Shown here one piece after another: positions 29,881 to 42,260 of a stretch of 64,000 nucleotides of DNA; position 1 is the first letter of the stretch; each line of letters begins with the position of its first letter. This DNA comes from Haloarchaeobius amylolyticus. Its GTDB lineage: Archaea > Halobacteriota > Halobacteria > Halobacteriales > Natrialbaceae. Position numbers and translations under genes: made by a program. Location of the stretch: positions 1,922,001 through 1,986,000 of the forward strand of contig NZ_JANHDH010000001.1 in the NCBI RefSeq assembly GCF_026616195.1. Reading direction: 5' to 3'. The notes below the pieces were generated by a model. That model was not told where the DNA came from, ran no database searches, and worked only from the letters and a program-made list of their open reading frames with translations.

Positions 29881-30282
29881 CTACTCGGCCGCCTGCTGGA
29901 GCTGGGCGGTCTCGTCGTACTTCTCGCGGAACTCCCCGATGAGGTTGCCCATCTTGGCGTACCAGTCGTTGAGCATGCGCTGCATGTCGTCGGCGATCTG
30001 GTCGGGGTCGACCGGCTGGTAGACGTGGTAGTAGCCGCCCTGCTCGTAGTTCACCTGTTCCTGCTGGACGAAGCCCGACTGCTGCAGGCGCTTGATCGCC
30101 CGGTAGGCGGTCGAGCGCTCGCGGTCGACGCGGTCTGCGATCTCGTCGACGGTCAGCGCCTCGGGGCTCTCGACGATGGTCGAGAACACCTCCTTGTCCA
30201 GTTCCTTGAGTCCGTGGATACACTCCAGCAGGCCCTCGCACTCCATGTCCTGCTGCAGGTACTCCCGCATCGAGTTGGCCAT
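29881..30282 (-). CDS. Winged-helix regulator with paired Cys, sulfur-island regulator A
   Basis: 133 residues. Residues about 40-90 form a TrmB/MarR-like winged helix (DEIADRVDRERSTAYRAIKRLQQSGFV, wing QVNYEQGGYYHVYQP). The N-terminus EYLQQDMECEGLLECIHGL places C15 and C21 in a conserved pair. The paralogue at 30393 keeps both cysteines. A thiol pair on a repressor beside persulfide enzymes suggests sulfane-sulfur sensing by disulfide or polysulfide formation; this is inference. It is preceded by TTTTACC as a TATA candidate and a degenerate GTTGCAC..AAT element. Confidence 0.75.
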   Translation of the reverse strand: MANSMREYLQQDMECEGLLECIHGLKELDKEVFSTIVESPEALTVDEIADRVDRERSTAYRAIKRLQQSGFVQQEQVNYEQGGYYHVYQPVDPDQIADDMQRMLNDWYAKMGNLIGEFREKYDETAQLQQAAE

Positions 30283-30324
30283 CTCGTCCTGAACCTATGT
30301 GGTACGGAGGTAAAAGCCTTGTTC

Positions 30325-30337
30325 GATTCGTGCAACA
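30325..30337 (-). promoter_or_regulatory. Degenerate operator-like element before regulator A
   Basis: Minus strand GTTGCACGAATCG resembles the reverse orientation of the palindrome TATTG-TG-CAATA (TATTGCACAATA) with an extra base. It lies just upstream of the TATA-like stretch, as at the other sulfur-island promoters. It is the weakest member of the set. Confidence 0.25.
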
Positions 30338-30392
30338 CCGCGCACGGGCGGCGAGAGGGCTCGCGGGACGGGGACGATTGCGGACCACGACG

Positions 30393-30803
30393 TCAGTCCG
30401 AGGCCCCCTCCGAGGCCCCCTCACTGGCCGCCTCCGCGTACTTCTCGCGGAACTCGCCGACCAGCATGCCCATCTTGGCGTACCAGTCGTTGAGCATGCG
30501 CTGCATGTCGTCTGCGACCCGTTCCGGGTCGGCCGCGTGGTAGACGTGGTAGTAGCCACCGTCGGCGTAGTTGACCTGCTGCTTCTGGACGAAGCCGGCG
30601 TCGACGAGCCGCTGGATGGCCCGGTAGGCGGTCGAGCGTTCGCGGTCGGTCGCGACCGCGACCTCGTCGATAGAGAGCGGCTCCGGGCTCTCGGCGAGCG
30701 TCCGGAACACCGCCAGGTCGAGGTCGCCGAGACCGTGACCACACTCCAGTAACCCTTCGCACTCCATGTCCTGTTCCAGGTATTCGCGCATCGAATCGGG
30801 CAT
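30393..30803 (-). CDS. Winged-helix regulator with paired Cys, sulfur-island regulator B
   Basis: 136 residues, paralogous to the regulator at 29881 over its whole length (both MREYL.QDMECEGLLEC at residues 5-21; both end DMQRMLNDWYAKMG.L.GEFREKY). The winged helix covers about 40-90 (DEVAVATDRERSTAYRAIQRLVDAGFV). The two cysteines C15 and C21 are conserved. The ATG complements 30801-30803. A perfect TATTG-TG-CAATA palindrome at 30838-30849 overlaps its promoter, so it is probably autoregulated. The C-terminal tail is a short Glu/Ser/Ala repeat (SEGASEGASD). Confidence 0.78.
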   Translation of the reverse strand: MPDSMREYLEQDMECEGLLECGHGLGDLDLAVFRTLAESPEPLSIDEVAVATDRERSTAYRAIQRLVDAGFVQKQQVNYADGGYYHVYHAADPERVADDMQRMLNDWYAKMGMLVGEFREKYAEAASEGASEGASD

Positions 30804-31129
30804 CGTTGGTCGAGATGACGGGCCGTACGGCCAAAAGTATTGTGCAATATACGAAATACTATTCCAGCGAACTGTCGTCGCGACGTTACTGGAACCGGCC
30901 ACGTTGTCGGGCGTCGGTCGGCCCGCCCGATGGCCGTGGTCGTGATTATTGGGAAGTGTAGTGAATCTTCCACACGAACGGTGACTGCGGCCGGGTGCAA
31001 GCGACCGGCCGCAGGTGACCGAGTGCGAGCGACACGCACGAGGCGGTCAGGCACCCGTGCGCGAGTGGTGAGGAGTGGGAGTGGTCAGCGGCGGAGTGTG
31101 AGGTCGGTGGCGGACCGGTGGGGTCGGTC
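30804..31129. other. Intergenic region between the rhodanese-MBL gene and regulator B
   Basis: 326 nt without a recognisable gene. AT-rich only at 30830-30880 (promoter of regulator B) and around 30940-30970, where GGAAG and CTTCC arms (30952-30971) could form a hairpin downstream of the rhodanese-MBL gene. The rest is GC-rich and has no start with a plausible Shine-Dalgarno. Confidence 0.4.
30838..30849. promoter_or_regulatory. Perfect palindromic operator TATTG-TG-CAATA (regulator B promoter)
   Basis: TATTGTGCAATA with perfectly complementary 5-bp arms, 35-46 nt before the ATG of regulator B, next to its TATA-like stretch (minus strand ATACTTTTGG). An identical 12-mer occurs at 32506-32517. 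This is the expected place for an autoregulatory operator. Confidence 0.6.
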
Positions 31130-32323
31130 TCAGTCGCTGGTGAGCGCGTCCTGGCTGGCCGCGCAGTTGTTCGGGCCGAGTTCGAGTTCGAACGCCTCCT
31201 CGTCGCTGGCGTCTTGCTGCCCGAGGTTCGTCTCGATGATGTCCACGTAGTTCGCCGGGCGCGGGGGCATGTCCGAGAGGACGAGGTCGACGAAGTCGTC
31301 CTCGTCCATGGTCAGGGCGTCCATCGTCTCGACGAGTTCGCCGATGGGCGCGGTGTAGGTCCCGTCGTCGGCGGGCGTCGCGGCGTCGCTGAAGTGCGCG
31401 CCACCGATGAGGACGTCGTCGTCCTGCGTGAGGACCTTGGTCTGCAGCGTGTCGTAGAGCTGCTTCGCGGCGTCGGGGGCGCCCTCGTCGCCCTCCTCGA
31501 GGTCGGGCCGGGCGACGCTCTCGGTGAACAGGCCGTCGCCGGTCGCGAGCAGGCTGTCGCCGACGAGGTAGGAGGTCATCCCGCTCGTGTGGCCGGGCGT
31601 GTAGACCGTCTCGATCTCGGCCGCGCCGACCTCGAGGACGTCGCCGTCCCCGGCGGTCTCCATCTCGTCGGCGTAGGTGACGCCGCGCGGGACCGCGTTC
31701 GCCGGGATGACGCCCGTGACGCCCTCGTCGGCGAGGTTTCGCACGCCGCTGATGTGGTCGGCGTGGATGTGCGTGTCGATGGCGTAGCGGAGGTCCGCGT
31801 CGAGGTCTGCGGCGTCAGCGAGGTAGCGGTCGGTGAACTCGCGCAGCGGGTCGATGACCGCGGCCTCCCCGACGGAGACGAGCATGTAGGCGAGGCAGCC
31901 ACTGGACGGGCGCTGGTACTGGTAGAGCTTCCCGGGGCCGTCGTAGCGCGACACCTCGACGCGCTCGTAGATGCGGGCCCAGCCGTTCATGCCCTCCTCG
32001 AGGTGGACCACGTCGCGGCCGTCCTCGGCAAGCTTGCCGGCGACGAACTCGCTCGCGCCGCCCTTCGCGCACAGGACGACCAGCGGGTCGCCCTCGGGGA
32101 CGCGGTCGAGCACGTCCTCGGGGACCTCGTCCTCGAGGAACTCGAAGTACGGCACGTTGGCGATGTCGACGTTCTCGCCCTCGATGTGCCACTCGGAGAA
32201 GTCGCTCTCCATGCGGGCGTCGAGGATGGTCACGTCCTCCCCCGCGTCGATGCGGGCCTTCAGTTCGTCGGGACTCAGTTCGTCGACGTCGATGTCTGTC
32301 GTGGGTAACGCGTCAGGGTCCAT
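31130..32323 (-). CDS. Rhodanese-metallo-beta-lactamase fusion (persulfide dioxygenase type)
   Basis: 397 residues. An N-terminal rhodanese domain (about 15-115) has the catalytic C85 in LVVLCAKGGASEF. The C-terminal MBL domain has THIHADHISG (about 183-192), YTPGHTSGMTSY and GDGLF, the mononuclear-iron pattern of ETHE1-like persulfide dioxygenases. The likely role is to oxidise glutathione-type or other low-molecular-weight persulfides to sulfite, with the rhodanese domain exchanging sulfur with thiosulfate. Fusions with this N-to-C order (rhodanese first) are less familiar than MBL first. The promoter holds two operator-like elements. Confidence 0.85.
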   Translation of the reverse strand: MDPDALPTTDIDVDELSPDELKARIDAGEDVTILDARMESDFSEWHIEGENVDIANVPYFEFLEDEVPEDVLDRVPEGDPLVVLCAKGGASEFVAGKLAEDGRDVVHLEEGMNGWARIYERVEVSRYDGPGKLYQYQRPSSGCLAYMLVSVGEAAVIDPLREFTDRYLADAADLDADLRYAIDTHIHADHISGVRNLADEGVTGVIPANAVPRGVTYADEMETAGDGDVLEVGAAEIETVYTPGHTSGMTSYLVGDSLLATGDGLFTESVARPDLEEGDEGAPDAAKQLYDTLQTKVLTQDDDVLIGGAHFSDAATPADDGTYTAPIGELVETMDALTMDEDDFVDLVLSDMPPRPANYVDIIETNLGQQDASDEEAFELELGPNNCAASQDALTSD

Positions 32324-32351
32324 GCGTCACTCCACGCTTGGAGGTGGGTTG

Positions 32352-32379
32352 CAATAAGTATTGTGGATATTGCGCAAGA
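32352..32379. promoter_or_regulatory. Operator-like elements in the rhodanese-MBL promoter
   Basis: TATTG-CG-CAAGA at 32368-32379 matches the TATTG-N2-CAATA palindrome with one mismatch in the arms. CAATA-AG-TATTG at 32352-32363 has the same half-sites in inverted order and overlaps a TATA candidate (minus strand ACTTATTG) about 30 nt from the ATG. Confidence 0.5.
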
Positions 32380-32505
32380 CACTCAGAATAATTTGCATCG
32401 CCACGCGATGAGATAGCCAGAACAGAGCGATAATCTGCCTCGAAAACCAGAATACAGCCGCCAGAAGCGCTCCGTTGCCGGTATCGGTGAGACTAGCGCT
32501 TCTAC

Positions 32506-32517
32506 TATTGTGCAATA
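32506..32517. promoter_or_regulatory. Perfect palindromic operator TATTG-TG-CAATA (32.5 kb)
   Basis: Second exact copy of TATTGTGCAATA, in the 252-nt gap between the TauE/SafE stop and the rhodanese-MBL start. It lies 183 nt upstream of the latter gene, so it may serve a distal promoter or loop with the sites at 32352-32379. It is AT-rich on the right (ACACAAATCTATATG). Confidence 0.55.
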
Positions 32518-32575
32518 CACACAAATCTATATGGGCTGCAGACCCGGCCGAAAAAGCGTCGCTACAGCAAGGTCG

Positions 32576-33607
32576 TCAGTCCGCGGTGGGGTGGGTGGTG
32601 GTCGACTCGGCGCGCAGCTCCTTGATGCTGCTGTAGACGACGGCACCGCTGACGAGCAGCGCCGCGCCGAGGATGATCGCCAGGCTGATCGTGTCCGCGA
32701 CGGGGACGTCCATGACGTTCCCGGCCTTGCGGATGGCGACCGCGATGGCGCCCAGCAGGAGCATCACACCGAAGTACACCTTGATCTCCTCCTCGTCGAC
32801 CAGGCTGGTCGAGGCCGCGCCCATGCGGGCCCCGAGCGCGCTCCCGGCGAGCAGGGGGACGACGATGCTGAGGTCGACCGCGCCGGACTGGGCGTAGAGG
32901 AAGCTCCCGATACCGCCCGAGAACACGATCTCGAACAGGTCGGTCCCGACCGCGACGGGCACCGGCACCCCGATGAGGTAGAACAGCGCGGGCATACGGA
33001 TGAACCCGCCACCGACGCCGAGGAAGCCCGACAGCAGGCCGGTCAGGAACGCGACCAGCAGTATCATCCACAGGGAGACGCTGACGCCCCCACGGAGACG
33101 GATCATCGGCGGGACGCGGTAGGACTGTATCTTCTTCGCGATGTCGGGGATGTCGTCGGCCGACACCTCCGCGTCCTCCTCGACGTCGTGGCTGATGCCG
33201 CCGTCACCGCCTTTCAGGGCGGTCCAGGTGACGAACACGCCGATGCCACCGAGCAGGAGGACGTACGCGACGCTGACGACGCTGTCCGCGTACCCCATGT
33301 GCTGGAGCCACTCGAGGCCGAGCTTCCCGACCTCGATACCGGCGGTCGTCCCGGCGATCATCAACACGCCGAGCTTGTAGTCGACCTGCCCGAGGTCGCG
33401 GTGTTTCAGCGTCGCGATGACGGAGGTCCCGAAGACGAACGCGAGGCCGGACGCGACCGCCACGTCCGTCTCGTACCCCATCACCAGCAGTGCCGGCGTG
33501 ACGAGGAACGACCCGCCCATGCCGAAGAACCCGAACAGGATGCCGATGAGCACCCCGAAGCCCACGAACGTCGTGAGCAACAGGACGCTCATGCCGAGTA
33601 CCTCCAT
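32576..33607 (-). CDS. TauE/SafE family sulfite/sulfonate exporter
   Basis: 343 residues with about eight membrane segments in two repeats. GILFGFFGMGGSFLVTPALLVMGY and TGLLSGFLGVGGGFIRMPALFYLIG are the duplicated TauE/SafE glycine motifs. A cytoplasmic loop (GGISHDVEEDAEVSADDIPDIAKK) joins them. It is a likely sulfite or sulfonate efflux protein, fitting the persulfide dioxygenase next door. Its ATG follows the stop of the 49-residue gene by two bases. Confidence 0.88.
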   Translation of the reverse strand: MEVLGMSVLLLTTFVGFGVLIGILFGFFGMGGSFLVTPALLVMGYETDVAVASGLAFVFGTSVIATLKHRDLGQVDYKLGVLMIAGTTAGIEVGKLGLEWLQHMGYADSVVSVAYVLLLGGIGVFVTWTALKGGDGGISHDVEEDAEVSADDIPDIAKKIQSYRVPPMIRLRGGVSVSLWMILLVAFLTGLLSGFLGVGGGFIRMPALFYLIGVPVPVAVGTDLFEIVFSGGIGSFLYAQSGAVDLSIVVPLLAGSALGARMGAASTSLVDEEEIKVYFGVMLLLGAIAVAIRKAGNVMDVPVADTISLAIILGAALLVSGAVVYSSIKELRAESTTTHPTAD

Positions 33608-33609
33608 GG

Positions 33610-33759
33610 TCAGGCACCCCGGATGGCGTCACGGATGATGGGGCCGAGGACGCGCTCGAGGAGGCCGTACCCCACGTAGAGGATGGCCGCCTCGACGAGC
33701 ACGATCCCGATCAGTGCCGCCGCCTGTGCGTTCCCGCTGAGTGATTCAATCCCGAACAT
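33610..33759 (-). CDS. 49-residue membrane protein partnered with TauE/SafE
   Basis: 49 residues, one hydrophobic segment (AAALIGIVLVEAAILYVGYGL) followed by an amphipathic basic end (LERVLGPIIRDAIRGA). Start MFGIESLSGN; the stop is two bases before the TauE/SafE ATG, so the two form an operon. It resembles the small haloarchaeal DUF7512 proteins from memory, unverified. It may be a small regulatory or assembly subunit of the exporter. The gene is real on position, codon use and spacing. Confidence 0.7.
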   Translation of the reverse strand: MFGIESLSGNAQAAALIGIVLVEAAILYVGYGLLERVLGPIIRDAIRGA

Positions 33760-34263
33760 CGTGCACCTCGAACCGTAGTCTTGTACACTTCATGAGTTTC
33801 TGTACACGACACCGTAGCCGGCAGGACGTAATAACGGTTTTGGGAACACTGTGCAATACTATATCCCCATACCTCATACATGGTGATGCATAAGTTATCG
33901 ATAGCTACAGCAGATATAGTAGTCAGTCTCCAGATACGTATCCGGACCATCCCAGCAGCCCGTAGCGCGCGCCAGCGACTGCCGGAAGGTAACTGTCGGA
34001 GAACAGGTCAGCTCGAAGTTACATCGTCGTGGTAGGTCGCCGGCGAGACGAGGCAGCAGTCGCCGAGCGTCCTGGCGGAGGTCGAGGTGCAGGAGCAGGG
34101 ACCTGACGAGCGCAGGTGGCCTGTGCGGACGGCCGGGACGGATCAGCGACGCGACTGGGCGAACTGCGACAGTCCCGTCGGTCGTCCCGGGTGAGAGAAT
34201 GGTGAGAACCGCGGTTGCACAACGCGTGCGTCGCGCGTGAGAATCGTGGTCGGCGAACCGCGG
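33760..34263. promoter_or_regulatory. Promoter and AT-rich gap upstream of the TauE operon
   Basis: 504 nt without a credible gene. Contains a degenerate operator CACTG-TG-CAATA (33847-33858), a possible TATA box (minus strand GTTATTACG near 33828), and two direct TGTACAC repeats (33782-33788 and 33801-33807) between TATA and the ATG of the 49-residue gene. GTTG-CA-CAAC (34214-34223) is an isolated palindrome. The middle is GC-rich and uninformative. Confidence 0.4.
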
Positions 34264-34731
34264 TCAGTCGGCGGAGGTGGGCGCCGAGCTGGCCTCGTCG
34301 TCGCGCGAGCGCCAGACGCCCTGGACGTACGCGCCGAGGAACATCCCGCCGATGCCCCAGAGGATGGTCAGGTTCCCGACGCCGAGGCTGGCGTAGGCCG
34401 CCCCCGGACAGATGCCGGAGAGGCCCCAGCCGACGCCGAAGACGGTCCCGCCGATGAGGACGTTGCTGTCGTAGTCCTTCAGGCGGCGCTTGTACTCCTC
34501 GCCCGTGAGGGGCGCGCGCCGGCCGGACCTGCTCATCAGCCAGAAGAAGAGGCCCGCGGTGACGCTCGCACCACCCATGACGAGCAGGAGGCCGAAGTCC
34601 TCGAGCTGGAGGAACCGCAGGACGACCTCAGGCCGGGCCATCTCGCTGTGGGCGAGGCCCACGCCGAAGATCAGTCCGCCGAGGGCGACGAGCCCGTAGA
34701 ACGGCAGGCCCCGTCCCTGTGCCTGGCTCAT
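34264..34731 (-). CDS. YeeE/YedE family protein, C-terminal half of a split thiosulfate channel
   Basis: 155 residues with about four spans. It carries the second-half motif GWGLSGICPGAAYASLGVGN with C108, matching one of the relay cysteines of YeeE/TsuA thiosulfate channels. Its N-terminal MSQAQGRGLPFYGLVALGGLIFGVGLAHS is the first span. The upstream gene (34728-35195) supplies the other half and overlaps by 4 nt (ATGA), so together they equal one ~310-residue YeeE/YedE channel. The role is uptake of thiosulfate or another reduced sulfur compound. Confidence 0.85.
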   Translation of the reverse strand: MSQAQGRGLPFYGLVALGGLIFGVGLAHSEMARPEVVLRFLQLEDFGLLLVMGGASVTAGLFFWLMSRSGRRAPLTGEEYKRRLKDYDSNVLIGGTVFGVGWGLSGICPGAAYASLGVGNLTILWGIGGMFLGAYVQGVWRSRDDEASSAPTSAD

Positions 34732-35195
34732 ATTCCCACCCCGAAGAACACGATGGCGTTCGCGGTGAGGATGGCGACGACGACGAAGGTCGCGACGTTG
34801 ACCAGCGAGGTCTCCGAGAGCGACCCGACGCCACAGACGCCGTGGCCGGACGTACAGCCCTTCCCGACGCGGGTCCCGATGCCGACGAGGAACCCGCCGA
34901 GGAGGAGCCGCCACGGGGCGACCTCCGTGGTGAACCAGTCGCCACCCGTCGCGAGCGTGTAGAGTGCGGCACCCGACACGATGCTCAGGGTGAAGACGAC
35001 GCGCCAGTCGCGCGAACTCGTGAAGCGGAACTGCTGGAACCGCGAGCGGTTGGAGACGTACGACCACGTCGACTCGAGGAACGTGCTCGCCCCCGCGATG
35101 ATCCCCGTGCCGAGGTAGATGATCGCGGTGCCGAGCCCGATGAGGAAGCCCCCGAGCGCGTAGTGGGCGACGCCGTTGGGGAACAGCTCGATCAT
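34728..35195 (-). CDS. YeeE/YedE family protein, N-terminal half of a split thiosulfate channel
   Basis: 155 residues with about four spans. The family motif GIGTRVGKGCTSGHGVCGVGSLS carries C114 and C121, and LGTGIIAGASTFLE is the first re-entrant region. With the next gene it forms a split YeeE/YedE channel. In E. coli the single-chain YeeE works with the TusA-like YeeD; here TusA lies divergently 340 nt away. A 45-residue ORF ends 7 nt upstream of the ATG. Confidence 0.85.
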   Translation of the reverse strand: MIELFPNGVAHYALGGFLIGLGTAIIYLGTGIIAGASTFLESTWSYVSNRSRFQQFRFTSSRDWRVVFTLSIVSGAALYTLATGGDWFTTEVAPWRLLLGGFLVGIGTRVGKGCTSGHGVCGVGSLSETSLVNVATFVVVAILTANAIVFFGVGI

Positions 35196-35202
35196 CGCTC
35201 GG

Positions 35203-35340
35203 TCAGCGACCCCCTGCAGCCGTGGTTGCGGTCGGCGCGACGCCGACCGTCGGTGCCTCTCGCCCGGCCGGGACCCCGGCCCGGGTGCGGGCGGTACTGT
35301 CGACCGACGCTGTGACGTCGGAGAAAGCGTGTTCGCTCAT
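35203..35340 (-). CDS. Possible 45-residue protein leading the YeeE/YedE operon
   Basis: MSEHAFSDVTASVDSTARTR... to GGR, 45 residues, hydrophilic. The ATG (complement of 35338-35340) lies about where transcription would start from the TATA-like CTTAAG near 35372, so the mRNA could be leaderless. The stop is 7 nt before the YeeE ATG, and base composition changes from AT-rich promoter to GC-rich exactly at the ORF. No homology is recognised. It could be a leader peptide or a small protein; it is reported with reserve. Confidence 0.4.
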   Translation of the reverse strand: MSEHAFSDVTASVDSTARTRAGVPAGREAPTVGVAPTATTAAGGR

Positions 35341-35377
35341 CTTCAGTCCAAGGTATCTGGTGTGCGCACTTAAGCGT

Positions 35378-35404
35378 TTGCATAGAATATCGCAATACAT
35401 GCAA
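35378..35404. promoter_or_regulatory. Operator-like half-site and inverted repeat before the YeeE/YedE operon
   Basis: CAATA half-site at 35393-35397 preceded by ATATCG, and a wider inverted repeat TTGCAT (35378-35383) / ATGCAA (35399-35404). It lies between the divergent YeeE/YedE and TusA genes, just upstream of the TATA-like CTTAAG. Confidence 0.35.
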
Positions 35405-35500
35405 GACTGTCGCAGTTACCGACTGCTCACCTACGCGGTCTCGCACGCGATAACAGAGATATAGCCCGAATCGAGCCGCCCTCGAACAGCGACAGATATT

Positions 35501-35527
35501 TATTGTATAGCCCAATATTGTGGAGTA
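35501..35527. promoter_or_regulatory. Operator-like half-sites over the TusA promoter
   Basis: TATTG (35501-35505) and CAATA (35513-35517) are inverted half-sites 7 nt apart, then TATTGTGGAGTA (35516-35527) repeats the left half TATTGTG. They overlap the TATA-like TTTATTGTATAG about 30 nt before the TusA ATG. Confidence 0.45.
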
Positions 35528-35536
35528 CACGCAACA

Positions 35537-35782
35537 ATGAGCACAGACATCAGCGCTACCGAGACCCTCGACGTGAAAGGAGAGAACTGCCCGATGCCCG
35601 TCGTCAAGACCAAGCAGGCCATCGACGGCCTCGACGCGGACGACGTGCTCGAAGTGGTCGCGACCGACTCCGGCAGCATGAGCGACATCAAGGGCTGGGC
35701 CGACACCACCGACGGCGTCGAGCTCGTCGGCCAGGAGGAGGGCGACGGCGTCTACCTGCACTACGTGCGCAAGACGGAGTGA
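35537..35782 (+). CDS. tusA: TusA-family sulfurtransferase
   Basis: 81 residues, one TusA/SirA domain. The sulfane-sulfur carrier Cys is C18 in GENCPMPVVKTKQAI. The fold is completed by DVLEVVATDSGSMSDIKGWADTTDGVELVG. TusA passes persulfide sulfur between donors and acceptors. The ATG lies about 30 nt from a TATA box overlapped by operator half-sites, so initiation is near-leaderless. The DsrE2-like gene follows after 3 nt; the split YeeE/YedE operon is divergent. Confidence 0.9.
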   Translation: MSTDISATETLDVKGENCPMPVVKTKQAIDGLDADDVLEVVATDSGSMSDIKGWADTTDGVELVGQEEGDGVYLHYVRKTE

Positions 35783-35785
35783 ATC

Positions 35786-36376
35786 ATGAGCACCGACACG
35801 CCCGCATCGCAGGACGCCGACGCCGCCGTCGACGCCGAGGACGCAGCAGCCCTGCGTGCCCGCATCGACGACCTGGAAGCACAACTCGCCGACCTCGAGA
35901 CCGAGGTCGCCGACGACCAGCAGAAGATGGTCATCATCGCCACGAAGGGGACCCTCGACATGGCCTACCCGCCACTCATCCTGGCGAGCACGGCGGCCGC
36001 CTTCGGCTGGGACGTGACCGTCTTCCACACGTTCTGGGGACTGGACATCCTGCACGAGAAGCACTCGAAGAACCTCTCGCTCAGCGCGGTCGGCAACCCC
36101 AACATGCCGATGCCCAACGCCATCGCGGCCCTCCCAGGGATGGACCGCATGGCGACGAAGATGATGGAAAAGCGCATCGCGGACAACGACACCGCGACCA
36201 TCGAGGAGCTCATCGAGACGAGCCTGGACATGGGTGTGGAGTTCCAGGCCTGCCAGATGACCATCGACCTGATGGACTACGACGAGGACGACTTCTTCGA
36301 CGGTGTCACCACCGGCGTCGGCGCGGCCAGCGCCCTCAGCGAGATGGGCGAGGCCGACATCCAGCTACTGGTCTGA
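35786..36376 (+). CDS. DsrE/DsrF-like protein (DsrE2 type)
   Basis: 196 residues. After an acidic coiled-coil-like N-terminus (AALRARIDDLEAQLADLETEVADDQQ, about 20-46) comes a DsrE2 domain: KMVIIATKGTLDMAYPPLILASTAAAFGWDVTVFHTFWGLDIL. The conserved Cys is C156 in VEFQACQMTIDLM. DsrE2 proteins accept and pass sulfane sulfur, often beside TusA and a rhodanese, as here. It is translated from the same mRNA as TusA (3-nt gap). Confidence 0.87.
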   Translation: MSTDTPASQDADAAVDAEDAAALRARIDDLEAQLADLETEVADDQQKMVIIATKGTLDMAYPPLILASTAAAFGWDVTVFHTFWGLDILHEKHSKNLSLSAVGNPNMPMPNAIAALPGMDRMATKMMEKRIADNDTATIEELIETSLDMGVEFQACQMTIDLMDYDEDDFFDGVTTGVGAASALSEMGEADIQLLV

Positions 36377-37922: not shown

Positions 37923-38603
37923 CTAGTCGAGCGTCACGTCGTCGGCGAGCAATCGCTCCTCGACGTAGGCGTCGACCTCGGCCATGGCGGCTTCCCGGTC
38001 GAACGTCGACGTGGCGCCCCGGAAGATGGTCCCCATCCCGATGGTGACCAGCATGTCCGCGACCTGCGTGGCGTCCACCTCGCGGAAGACCCCCTCGATG
38101 ATGCCGCGCTCGATGATGTCCGCGAAGGTCCCGCGGAAGGCCGCGTCGATATCGGTGAAGCGCTCGCGGAACGCGGGTTCGTTGACGCCCTGGGCCCGGA
38201 CCTCGACGAGCGGCCCGCGCTCCATCGCGTTCTTCTCGCGGATCGGTGCGTCGGGTGGGACCTCGCCCGGGACCGTATCGATGATATCGCCCGCGACGTC
38301 CTCGTCCATCGGGCCAGCGACCATCAGCTGGGCGTGGCGGCGCAGGTCCTCGACCGGGTCGTCGCTGAAACGGATGTCGAAGCCCGACCCGAACTGCCCG
38401 TACATGAACTCCATGAACGAGAGCAGGAGGTCGTCTTTCCCGTCGTAGAAGTGGTAGAAGGAGGACTTGCTGAGGCCGGCCTCGTCGGCGATTCGCTGGA
38501 TGGAGAGCCCGGCGTACCCGTACTCGCGCAGCGCCCGGAACGTCGCGTGCATGATCTTCTCGCGGGTGTCGGTCGGTTCGGCGGTGAAGGGCCCGTCGCT
38601 CAT
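37923..38603 (-). CDS. TetR/AcrR family repressor of the adjacent MMPL exporter
   Basis: 226 residues. Classic TetR N-terminus: MHATFRALREYGYAGLSIQRIADEAGLSKSSFYHFYDGKDDLLLSFMEF (residues about 17-65). The C-terminal domain is helical and would bind the inducer. It is divergent from the large MMPL/RND gene. A perfect 22-bp palindrome begins right at its ATG and two more palindromic repeats precede the MMPL gene, so it very probably represses both genes. The inducer is unknown. Confidence 0.88.
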   Translation of the reverse strand: MSDGPFTAEPTDTREKIMHATFRALREYGYAGLSIQRIADEAGLSKSSFYHFYDGKDDLLLSFMEFMYGQFGSGFDIRFSDDPVEDLRRHAQLMVAGPMDEDVAGDIIDTVPGEVPPDAPIREKNAMERGPLVEVRAQGVNEPAFRERFTDIDAAFRGTFADIIERGIIEGVFREVDATQVADMLVTIGMGTIFRGATSTFDREAAMAEVDAYVEERLLADDVTLD

Positions 38604-38625
38604 ACCGACCGAATATTCGGTCGGT
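38604..38625. promoter_or_regulatory. Perfect 22-bp palindromic TetR operator
   Basis: ACCGACCGAAT followed by its exact reverse complement ATTCGGTCGGT, starting one base upstream of the TetR ATG. The half-site ACCGA(A/C)CG recurs at the sites below. The position would block the repressor gene's own transcription. Confidence 0.7.
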
Positions 38626-38683
38626 CCGTAAAAGCGTGCCGCGCGGGCCTGCCACGGCGGAGACGCCGAAAGATTGATTACTT

Positions 38684-38724
38684 ACCGAACGTTCGTTCGA
38701 CACATGCCTACCGAACGTTCGTTC
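38684..38724. promoter_or_regulatory. Paired TetR-type operators before the MMPL exporter
   Basis: Two copies of TACCGAACGTTCGTTC, each with the core palindrome CGAACGTTCG (38686-38695 and 38712-38721), centre-to-centre 26 bp. They lie 30-70 nt before the exporter ATG, near AT-rich TTGATTACTTA (38674-38684), a likely TATA box. Confidence 0.65.
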
Positions 38725-38753
38725 AGTACCCGGCGAGCAGGGAGGGCCGGCAG

Positions 38754-41700
38754 ATGAGCCGCCCCGACGTCCCCGACCTCGTCACCGCGTACAGCAAGCA
38801 CGCCATCGCCGTGATGCTCGTCCTGACGCTGGTCGTCGGGGCCGGGGTCCCGGCGATGGAGCAATCGACCTCCCTCGAACAGTACCAGGGCGGCACGACC
38901 GAGGGCGACGCGCTGGACTACCTCGACGCGAACTTCTCGGGGGGCGAAGGGAACACGACGGTCGCACAGATCGTCGTCCGAGACGACGACGTGCTCGCGA
39001 AGGACAGCCTCGTCGAGACGCTCTCGTACCAGCAGGCCCTGCGCGCGAACGAGACGGTCGACGAGAGCGTCGGCGAGGACGGTATCCGGAGCGTCGCGAA
39101 CGTCGTCGCCACGACCGCCATCGCCGAGGAGCGCGCGGCCGACCTGCAGGACCGCCAGCACGAGGTGAACGAGACGAACACCGCGCTTCAGGAAGCACTC
39201 GCCGGACTCGAAGCGAACCCCAACGCCAGCGCGAGCGCCGCGTTCGCGGACGTCCGGGCGAACAGTTCGGTGACCCTCTCGGCGGCGGACGAGCAGACCT
39301 TCGAGAACGCGACCCGGCAGCTCCGCACCGCCGAGAACGAGAGCCAGCGACAGGCGGCCTACCGCCTCGGGACGCAGGGCGTCCTCGCCGAGGAGTACGA
39401 GGACCTGGAGGACGACCGGGAGGTGCTCGAATCGGGTATCGACCCGACGCTCGCCGCCCAGCAGGCCCAGCTCGAATCGATGAACGAGAGTGCGGTCGAC
39501 GACGTGGTGTCGCGGGTCCTCGGGGGCGAGGGCGGTGGGAACGGTCAGAGTGGCGAGGGCGACGACGGTCCGGAAGCGGTCAGCGGCCCGGGAACCGCCC
39601 GGATGCTCCGGTTCATGCCGGCGGAGTACGAGCCGGGAAGCACGGAGGCGAACGCGACGCTGGTGCTCGTGACCCAGCAGACCGACGCCGCGTCCTTCGC
39701 ACCCGGTGACGCCCCGGAGGCGGTCATCGACGCCGAGCTGGCGATGCAGGACCTCGCGGCGTCGCAGGACAGCGAGCTGACCTACCTCGTCTTCGGGAGC
39801 GGCATCGTCGCCGACGAGATCTCGGCCTCGATGAGCGACAGCATCGCCATCGTCGGGCCGCTGGCGTTCGCGTTCGTGCTGGTCGTGCTCGCCATCGCCT
39901 ACCGCGACCTGCTCGACGTGGTGCTCGGGCTGGCCGGCGTCGTCACCGTGCTCGTCTGGACGTTCGGCGTGATGGGCTGGACCGGCATCGCGTTCAACCA
40001 GATGTTCATCATGATACTGGTGTTGCTCATCGGCCTCTCCATCGACTACGCCATCCACGTCGTGATGCGCTACCGCGAGGAGCGGGATGCCGACACCAGC
40101 CCGCTCGCCGCGATGCGGACCAGCCTCGCGACGGTCGGGGGCGCACTCGTCCTCGTGACGACGACCACGGTCGTCGGCTTCCTCTCGAACCTCACCAGCC
40201 CCATCGGGACCTTTCGAACGGTCGGCGTGGTCGCCGCGGTCGGCATCGGCTCGGCGCTGCTCGTCTTCGGCGTGCTCGTGCCCGCGGTGAAGCTCGAACT
40301 CGACGCCTGGCTCGAATCGCGGGGGTGGAACCGCCAGCTCCCCGCCTTCGGCACCGGCGGCGGCCGCTTCACCGAGGCTCTCCGCGTCGGCGAGGCGGCT
40401 GCCCGCAGGGCACCGGCGGCCATCCTCGTCGTGGCCCTCCTCCTCACCGCGGCCGGGGCCTACGGCGGGACGCAGGTCGGCACGAGCTTCAGCCAGGAGG
40501 ACTTCCTCGCGGACGACCCGAGCGAGTGGATGCAGGACCTGCCCGACCCGCTCGCGCCCGGCGACTACCAGGCCCAGGAGGCGATGTCGGTGCTGAACGA
40601 CCGCTTCGTCCGCGAGGACTCGCAGGCCCAGATACTCGTCACCGACGACGTGACCGACCCGGCCACCCTCGACCGGTTGCACGCGGCCACCGACGCCGCC
40701 GCGGAGAAGGACACCACGAGCCGGCTCTCGAACGGCGAGGCGGCCATCGACAGCCCCGTCGCCACGTTCGAGCGCGTCGCCGCCGAGAACGAGTCGTTCG
40801 CGGCGACCCTCGCCGCCGCCGACACCGACGACGACGGCGTCCCCGAGGAGAACGTCACCCGCGTCTACGACGACCTGTACGCGGCCGCACCCGACCAGGC
40901 CGGCGAGACCGTCTACCGGAGCGATTCCGGCGAGTACGAGGCGCTCAGGCTGGTCGTCTCGGTCGACGGCGGTGCCGACGGCGAGACGGTGCTGGAGGAG
41001 ATGCGCGACGTGGCCAGCATCGTCGACGGGGACGGCGACGGCGACGACGGGTCCGAGGCGGTCGCGACCGGGCAGGTCATCGTCGACCAGCTCACGCAGG
41101 AACAGCTCCTGACGACCGTCCTCCGGGGGCTCGTCATCTCGCTCGTGGTCGTGACCGTCATCCTGATGCTCGCGTACCGGGTCACCGAGGGGAGCGCCTC
41201 ACTCGGGGCGGTCACGGTGCTCCCGGTCGTGTTCACGCTGGCGTGGATACTCGGGACGATGCACCTGCTCGACATCTCGTTCAACGTCGTCACCGGGCTG
41301 ATCACCAGCCTGACCATCGGGATGGGCGTGGACTACAGCGTCCACGTCAGCGAGCGCTACAACCACGAACTGGCCGAACTCGGGTCGGCGTGGGACGCGC
41401 TGGCGGCCGCGGTCACGGGGACCGGTGGTGCACTGGCGAGCAGCGCCGCGACGACGGCCGGCGGGTTCGGCGTCCTCACGGTCGCCATCCTGCCGTTCCT
41501 CCAGCAGTTCGGGCTCATCACGGCGCTGACAATCGCATACGCCTTCGTCGCCAGCGTGGTCGTGCTCCCGAGCCTGCTCGTGCTCTGGACGCGGTTCGCC
41601 CACCCCGAGACGCTCGGCGTCGATGACGAAGAGCCCGGACGGTCCGACCCCGCGGAATCCGCGGTGGCGACCGGGCTGGAGACGGTCGCCGACGAACCTG

Positions 41701-42260
41701 CCGACGACGGCGAACTCGCCAGCCCCACTGCGACGCGCACCCTCGAACAGACCCACGTCCGGCCGGGACAGACGCTCCGGGTCCACCTCGCGGTCGAAGG
41801 TGGGGACGGCCGGCTCGTCCTCCGCGACCGCGCGGTCGGGACCGAGACCGGTCTGGTCGAGGTCTCCCCCGAACCAGCGCAGGCGATGGCCACCGACGGC
41901 GTCGTGTTCGTGGCCTGGGACGGCGACGCGGGTGAGGACCGGCGCTGCACCTACGAGACGACCATCCCCCAGAACGCGACAGACGGCGATACCGCCCGGT
42001 TCGCCGGAACGGTCGAGACGGCCGCCAGCGAGACGCGCGTCGCGGGCGAGGACAGCGTCCAGGTCGTCGCGGACCTGTTCGAGCGCGTGGTGTCCCAGGG
42101 CTACGCGACCGACGCGGACCTCGCGGTCGCCGCGACCGCGTTCGAGCAGGGGGAACTCACCGCGGCGCAGTTCGAGCGACTCACCCGGGCCTGGCTCCGG
42201 GTCGAGGACGGAACGGCCGAGAGACCGGCGGTCGGGCGGCTTCCGGCGTCGGCCGACTGA
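38754..42260 (+). CDS. MMPL/RND superfamily transporter with extra C-terminal domain
   Basis: 1168 residues. Two RND repeats: a first span (SKHAIAVMLVLTLVVGAGVPAM), a large extracytoplasmic loop (to about 350), then spans including GLSIDYAIHVVMRYREERD; the second repeat has IGMGVDYSVHVSERYNHEL. The conserved acidic IDYA and VDYS motifs lie in the fourth helix of each half, as in HpnN/MmpL-type lipid or drug exporters. After the last span (LVLWTRFAHPE, about 955) comes a ~200-residue tail with a beta-rich part (THVRPGQTLRVHLAVEGGDG) and a helical end. The start MSRPDVPDLVTAYSKH is chosen by the membrane topology. It is controlled by the divergent TetR. Confidence 0.88.
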   Translation: MSRPDVPDLVTAYSKHAIAVMLVLTLVVGAGVPAMEQSTSLEQYQGGTTEGDALDYLDANFSGGEGNTTVAQIVVRDDDVLAKDSLVETLSYQQALRANETVDESVGEDGIRSVANVVATTAIAEERAADLQDRQHEVNETNTALQEALAGLEANPNASASAAFADVRANSSVTLSAADEQTFENATRQLRTAENESQRQAAYRLGTQGVLAEEYEDLEDDREVLESGIDPTLAAQQAQLESMNESAVDDVVSRVLGGEGGGNGQSGEGDDGPEAVSGPGTARMLRFMPAEYEPGSTEANATLVLVTQQTDAASFAPGDAPEAVIDAELAMQDLAASQDSELTYLVFGSGIVADEISASMSDSIAIVGPLAFAFVLVVLAIAYRDLLDVVLGLAGVVTVLVWTFGVMGWTGIAFNQMFIMILVLLIGLSIDYAIHVVMRYREERDADTSPLAAMRTSLATVGGALVLVTTTTVVGFLSNLTSPIGTFRTVGVVAAVGIGSALLVFGVLVPAVKLELDAWLESRGWNRQLPAFGTGGGRFTEALRVGEAAARRAPAAILVVALLLTAAGAYGGTQVGTSFSQEDFLADDPSEWMQDLPDPLAPGDYQAQEAMSVLNDRFVREDSQAQILVTDDVTDPATLDRLHAATDAAAEKDTTSRLSNGEAAIDSPVATFERVAAENESFAATLAAADTDDDGVPEENVTRVYDDLYAAAPDQAGETVYRSDSGEYEALRLVVSVDGGADGETVLEEMRDVASIVDGDGDGDDGSEAVATGQVIVDQLTQEQLLTTVLRGLVISLVVVTVILMLAYRVTEGSASLGAVTVLPVVFTLAWILGTMHLLDISFNVVTGLITSLTIGMGVDYSVHVSERYNHELAELGSAWDALAAAVTGTGGALASSAATTAGGFGVLTVAILPFLQQFGLITALTIAYAFVASVVVLPSLLVLWTRFAHPETLGVDDEEPGRSDPAESAVATGLETVADEPADDGELASPTATRTLEQTHVRPGQTLRVHLAVEGGDGRLVLRDRAVGTETGLVEVSPEPAQAMATDGVVFVAWDGDAGEDRRCTYETTIPQNATDGDTARFAGTVETAASETRVAGEDSVQVVADLFERVVSQGYATDADLAVAATAFEQGELTAAQFERLTRAWLRVEDGTAERPAVGRLPASAD

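Follow-up and report, generated by a model that had tools for sequence, protein, structure and literature searches.

The window, by which we mean the whole 64,000-nucleotide stretch of Haloarchaeobius amylolyticus DNA that was analysed, contains a tandem pair of genes for small winged-helix regulators, here called regA and regB, beside a group of sulfur genes. Both regulator genes are intact open reading frames on the minus strand and lie where the first-pass annotation had placed them. The genes of the locus are the following.

29881-30282, minus strand: regA, single-wHTH TrmB-family regulator, 133 aa, with C15 and C21 (PF01978, E=2.9e-16)
30393-30803, minus strand: regB, tandem paralogue of regA, 136 aa, with C15 and C21 (PF01978, E=3.5e-14)
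31130-32323, minus strand: MBL-fold and rhodanese fusion of the persulfide dioxygenase/sulfurtransferase type, 397 aa (PF00753, PF00581)
32576-33607, minus strand: TauE/SafE-type permease, 343 aa (PF01925, E=2.3e-42)
33610-33759, minus strand: small membrane-like ORF before TauE, 49 aa, at the same position before TauE in other genomes
34264-34731, minus strand: YeeE/YedE-like half (DUF6691/Sulf_transp; PF20398, PF04143)
34728-35195, minus strand: YeeE/YedE-like half (Sulf_transp; PF04143)
35537-35782, plus strand: TusA-like sulfur carrier, 81 aa, divergently oriented (PF01206)
35786-36376, plus strand: DsrE2-like sulfur carrier, 196 aa (PF13686, E=1.1e-51)

Along the minus strand, the two YeeE-like halves, the 49-aa ORF with TauE, the MBL-rhodanese gene and then regB and regA follow one another, and the TusA-DsrE2 pair is divergent. 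We add as a new finding that this association extends to the regulator family: in 57 of 78 genomes a regulator copy has one or more persulfide-dioxygenase/rhodanese, TauE, YeeE, TusA or DsrE2 genes no farther than 5.5 kb away, and in the other 21 no copy is found by sulfur genes. The orientation also recurs: in nearly all loci the sulfur genes share the strand of the regulator and TusA-DsrE2 points the other way. The literature searched gave no named regulator for the persulfide-dioxygenase/TauE/YeeE/TusA cluster that aerobic haloarchaea carry. Note also that the motif LGPNNCAA or LGPNNCA, which may be a conserved functional tail, occurs at or near the C-terminus of both MBL-rhodaneses (31130-32323 of the window, and 856-1998 of the distant locus L236 described below), and that a TetR-looking regulator (37923-38603), with no bearing on the present subject, is located beside a large transporter-like ORF (38334-42260; RND/MMPL-looking by eye).

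RegA and RegB belong to the TrmB family in its single-wHTH form, PF01978 scoring above its gathering score in both proteins. The C-terminal sugar-binding domain is absent: at 133 and 136 aa, the two proteins have noteworthy family matches to the DNA-binding domain only. The AlphaFold model (mean pLDDT 85.8, the N-terminus being its weakest part) consists of helices 2-12 and 15-23, one wHTH and a long C-terminal helix, and the nearest solved folds found with Foldseek are 3R0A (E=1.8e-7) and AbfR2 (6CMV, E=1.2e-6). Other family assignments were considered and rejected. For Sta1 and Lrs14 (NCBIfam NF053606 and NF040939), regA reached 72.2 bits against a cut-off of 80 and 40.8 against 90, with lower values for regB; the best families being TrmB, Sta1 and Lrs14, an ArsR or CsoR identity was likewise discarded, CsoR giving no match and the generic ArsR-type matches being marginal and below cut-off. 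The family is near-universal in Halobacteria, with a match at E<=1e-8 in 387 of 391 genomes (the weakest of these being probably OxsR-like) and a match at 1e-25 in 79 of 80 genomes selected across 74 genera.

Thiol sensing has a precedent in this fold. The single-wHTH TrmB protein OxsR (HVO_2970) of Haloferax volcanii is a thiol switch operating through C24 and an intersubunit disulfide (Mondragon 2022, PMC9426492); it senses hypochlorite via C24, which is required for function, its oxidation raises DNA binding, and its reported motif is CG-rich (PMC9426492). The targets of OxsR detected by ChIP include a CoA-disulfide-reductase homologue, thioredoxins and thioredoxin reductase (PMC9426492), and HVO_1360, with cysteines C15 and C21, was named as its possible partner in a proposed HVO_1360-OxsR heterodimer (Mondragon 2022, PMC9426492). 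The first-pass annotation had held that this winged-helix type has no established function of the persulfide-sensing kind, which stands for persulfides but is too broad for thiol switching in general, given what has been shown for OxsR C24 (PMC9426492). In our alignments, C21 coincides with the single cysteine of the OxsR-like protein encoded by the same genome and with a cysteine of 3R0A (MM_1094), a protein with intersubunit disulfides C6-C17 (PMC9426492); through the published alignment of C24 to the 3R0A cysteine (PMC9426492), C21 occupies the position of OxsR C24. The positions C15 and C21 are those printed for HVO_1360 (PMC9426492), from which we infer that RegA and RegB are probably of the HVO_1360 type (arCOG02242). 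Identity with OxsR proper, as orthologues of HVO_2970, was rejected: the OxsR-like gene, with its single cysteine, is a separate one in the same genome (L235, 24% identity). OxsR itself differs from the two proteins in having one cysteine and a CG-rich motif, HVO_1360 has no reported function, and with MM_1094 the two proteins have only the equivalent of C21 in common; AbfR2 is close in fold but is a biofilm regulator. In the literature searched, no link of HVO_1360 or arCOG02242 to sulfur genes, or to the operator described below, was found.

The cysteine pair within MECEGLLEC, with its C-x5-C spacing, had been correctly read in both proteins, and C15 and C21 are the only cysteines of each. 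However, the picture of two cysteines surviving in otherwise diverged sequences, the region around the HTH included, was overstated. RegA and RegB are paralogues with 71% identity across 127 aa (E=1e-71), and they have in common the N-terminal pattern M-x3-MREYLxQDMECEGLLEC; identity is 94% over residues 4-21, 81% over the N-terminal 26 residues, and again 81% in the recognition helix (53-68) and in the C-terminal helix, the divergence being concentrated in residues 27-55 (55% identity). Among 118 homologues from 73 genera, 116 keep both cysteines and 117 keep C21, while about 30 other alignment columns are equally conserved. The cysteines thus appear as part of a conserved N-terminal helix and not as lone survivors, and their conservation, which at the level of the family goes beyond chance, is compatible with thiol sensing. 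Covariation of the pair with sulfur-gene neighbours, which had been suggested as a check, gave no contrast, with both residues kept in 68/68 sulfur-gene-adjacent copies and 48/50 others; because the pair is nearly invariant, the comparison has no discriminating power, and the pair is a family trait that does not depend on which genes now surround a given copy. The two exceptions, L227 (C15W) and L231 (C15W and C21S), are diverged paralogues away from sulfur genes, a suggestive loss but one of two cases in one clade; together with L225 and L226 they form a diverged clade of the regulator family, no member of which is near sulfur genes. In the AlphaFold model C15 and C21 both fall in the short helix 15-23, six residues apart, so that an intramolecular C15-C21 disulfide is unlikely and intersubunit cross-links, as in OxsR and PDB 3R0A, would be more natural.

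Inspection of the promoters of the locus revealed a predicted operator that recurs as follows.

30319-30335: predicted operator of the regA promoter, TTGTTCGATTCGTGCAA, 37-53 nt upstream of the ATG and just 5' of a TATA-like element
30837-30859: predicted operator of the regB promoter, GTATTGTGCAATATACGAAATAC, with 1 mismatch to the 23-bp palindrome
32358-32380: predicted operator of the MBL-rhodanese promoter, GTATTGTGGATATTGCGCAAGAC, 1 mismatch
32508-32524: second operator-like site upstream of MBL-rhodanese, TTGTGCAATACACACAA
33837-33859: predicted operator of the small-ORF/TauE operon, GTTTTGGGAACACTGTGCAATAC, 1 mismatch, with equivalent sites in L270, L273 and L284
35518-35534: operator-like site immediately before the start codon of TusA, TTGTGGAGTACACGCAA

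In the promoters of regA, regB and MBL-rhodanese the site is a 17-bp inverted repeat that begins and ends within 37-54 nt before the start codon, by a TATA-like element. The palindrome has the core TTG-N11-CAA and the full form GTATTG-N11-CAATAC (23 bp), and across the promoters compared the extended palindrome gives a sharp peak at spacing 11. With up to 3 mismatches and within 120 bp upstream, the full form precedes 95% of TusA genes (n=39), 94% of MBL-rhodanese genes (n=35) and 46% of regulator genes (n=122), whereas among AT-rich controls the figure is 12%; these percentages are descriptive, as the motif was read off the same promoters that were later counted, and the genome-wide scans against a reversed control pattern given below are more independent. 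The regulator promoters thus fit the 23-bp consensus less well than those of TusA and MBL-rhodanese, and 17- and 19-bp forms coexist. The shorter pattern TTGY-N9/11-RCAA is present in 90 of 121 regulator promoters and in 20 of 507 (4%) AT-rich control upstreams, and in 83 of 86 cases 20-22 nt separate it from the TATA element; these controls, together with other genes of the same loci, rule out that the motif is a plain TATA/BRE element. Within the window, all four TTGY-N9-RCAA matches fall in 30319-35534 (0.6 expected per whole window) and three extended sites are found where 0.26 are expected; the YeeE1 promoter of the window gave no match to these patterns. The 49-aa ORF (33610-33759), itself conserved in L270, L273 and L284, has its own predicted operator. 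A putative operator common to the TusA, MBL-rhodanese and regulator promoters is, like the neighbourhood, a new element.

When a single mismatch is allowed, the extended form occurs seven times in the whole 4.6-Mb genome. The sites in front of regB, of MBL-rhodanese and of the TauE operon make up the three of the RegA/RegB locus; the remainder stand before a CoA-disulfide-reductase-like gene, a thioredoxin gene, a universal stress protein gene and, in one case, no clear gene. The site at L236 (G000:C1:1703200-1707300; 2017-2039), 32 bp before the CoA-disulfide-reductase-like gene, is the only perfect one in the genome, and that gene directly follows a second, distant MBL-rhodanese gene; the one-mismatch site with no clear downstream gene is at L239 (G000:C3:326300-330400; 2051-2073). 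Six further genomes, the seven scanned genomes being hand-chosen, gave 28 sites and 1 for the reversed control pattern. About half of the 28 precede TusA, thioredoxin, the small-ORF/TauE operon, a disulfide reductase or MBL-rhodanese; others are found before TrxB-like, DsrE-like, OsmC and Usp genes, and for several no target is evident. The predicted regulon also includes AhpC-type genes, and some of the best sites are without a clear sulfur gene (L239, L268, L271, L276 and L277).

The distribution of the regulator points in the same direction. Seventeen of the 391 genomes have no strong match to the regulator family, and these were compared with 20 regulator-bearing relatives from the same genera. 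TusA is found in 17/20 of the latter and in 0/17 of the former (Fisher p=9e-8, uncorrected for relatedness), and is thus absent from three of the regulator-bearing genomes; some genomes are incomplete, and among the more complete ones p=3e-6. That genomes without the regulator are also without TusA is a further new observation. Operator sites average 4.25 per genome with the regulator and 1.0 without it. G339 carries the regulator without TusA; a single site with no more than one mismatch exists in this genome, 34 bp ahead of the regulator gene. The link to persulfide and sulfur genes drawn in the first-pass annotation is therefore supported by gene neighbourhood, shared predicted operator and phyletic co-occurrence.

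The tandem arrangement itself is rare. The regA-regB pair was found only in H. amylolyticus and one congener, in which regB is intact (90% identity), whereas four other congeners have a single copy of a different lineage beside YeeE and TusA genes; other adjacent copies occur in a handful of additional genomes from the same family (G064 and G370; in G052 the copies are 2.8 kb apart). In a quick tree, regA groups with the Halorubellus and Halogeometricum copies and regB stands on its own branch, but the AU test does not reject a single regA/regB clade (p=0.81), the constrained tree scoring better than the quick one. Either a recent local duplication or an acquisition may account for the pair. 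The earlier suggestion of different operator affinities is not borne out: the recognition helix is conserved, so that a different operator specificity of RegA and RegB is not indicated, and the promoters of both genes carry related sites at an equal distance from the ATG. A functional split, or a RegA/RegB heterodimer, would be speculation.

We consider it probable that RegA and RegB are HVO_1360-type autoregulators that bind the palindrome, respond to sulfane sulfur or thiols, and govern a limited set of sulfur and thiol-disulfide genes. Dimers would recognize the palindrome through its TTG-N11-CAA core. At their own genes, MBL-rhodanese and the TauE operon the palindrome immediately precedes the TATA box, and at TusA-DsrE2 it follows the TATA box in most genomes. 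Besides autoregulation, the regulon would comprise MBL-rhodanese, TauE, TusA-DsrE2, the CoA-disulfide-reductase-like enzyme and thioredoxin. The signal would probably be sulfane sulfur or a related thiol oxidant, sensed, by analogy with OxsR, at C21 with C15 as partner and most likely through intersubunit sulfur links. Most TusA promoters have the operator on the downstream side of the TATA box, an arrangement most naturally read as steric repression, which we favour there. At the other promoters, where the operator abuts the upstream side of TATA/BRE, OxsR-like activation and repression are both possible, and since oxidation raises DNA binding by OxsR, the sign may be activation.

More specifically, the CEGLLEC family could be a haloarchaeal sulfane-sulfur (persulfide) sensor, a two-cysteine TrmB winged helix that acts through a class-wide GTATTG-N11-CAATAC operator and takes the role of CstR or SqrR in a cst-like operon, a proposal to which we give slightly less than even credence. 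The ArsR-family persulfide sensors SqrR and BigR are winged-helix regulators with two cysteines. RegA and RegB resemble them in the conserved cysteine pair (116/118 members), and resemble both them and CstR in adjoining sulfur-oxidation genes with a shared predicted operator; they differ in belonging to TrmB and not to ArsR, the cysteine positions are not comparable, and the tetrasulfide chemistry is that of SqrR, being hypothetical for RegA and RegB, as is any persulfide chemistry of theirs. BigR is described as controlling the sulfur transferase/dioxygenase Blh (PMC5823870). CstR and YrkD, of the CsoR family and the cst-type sulfur operons of Staphylococcus and Bacillus, are likewise two-cysteine regulators by sulfur genes, their neighbours being TauE, TusA, rhodanese, persulfide dioxygenase and thioredoxin genes with binding sites in those promoters (PMC9918477), but they have the CsoR fold in place of the TrmB winged helix, and their response to sulfane sulfur is proven.

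A regulator of general thiol-oxidant stress (hypochlorite or disulfide stress) like OxsR, perhaps its heterodimer partner, with sulfur genes included only because persulfides are a part of thiol stress, is a rather unlikely alternative. OxsR is of the same single-wHTH type and senses hypochlorite via C24, the HVO_1360-OxsR heterodimer has been proposed, and the disulfide reductase and thioredoxins among the ChIP targets of OxsR (PMC9426492) have their like in the predicted regulon, alongside TrxB-like, OsmC and AhpC-type genes. Yet the most consistent sites precede MBL-rhodanese and TusA-DsrE2 and not general stress genes, the regulator family is lost together with TusA, and the palindrome differs from the CG-rich OxsR motif.

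It is also conceivable, though improbable, that the operator belongs to a different factor that controls both the sulfur genes and the CEGLLEC regulator genes, the regulator acting on other targets. The motif is known from sequence alone and the regulator promoters match its 23-bp consensus less well than those of TusA or MBL-rhodanese; against this stand the recurrence of the regulator gene by sulfur genes in many genera, the sole close site of G339 in front of the regulator gene despite the absence of TusA, and the near-background number of sites where the regulator is missing, though the sulfur genes are missing there too. We regard as about equally improbable the notion that the cysteines have a structural role in helix or dimer packing, or bind a metal, and that the tandem copy is a neutral duplicate. 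They do sit among conserved non-cysteine residues of the N-terminal helix and are kept in members away from sulfur genes, but OxsR needs its single equivalent cysteine to function and forms a disulfide between subunits through it, and regB has remained an intact ORF in the congener.

If RegA and RegB do control the sulfur and thiol-disulfide regulon proposed here, a near-universal haloarchaeal regulator of the HVO_1360 type would gain a function, a class-wide operator and a list of targets, and a further fold would join those of CstR and SqrR in the same role. Because the predicted regulons overlap in kind, the finding would also bear on a question left open in the OxsR study, namely why many OxsR-bound sites are without the OxsR motif (PMC9426492).
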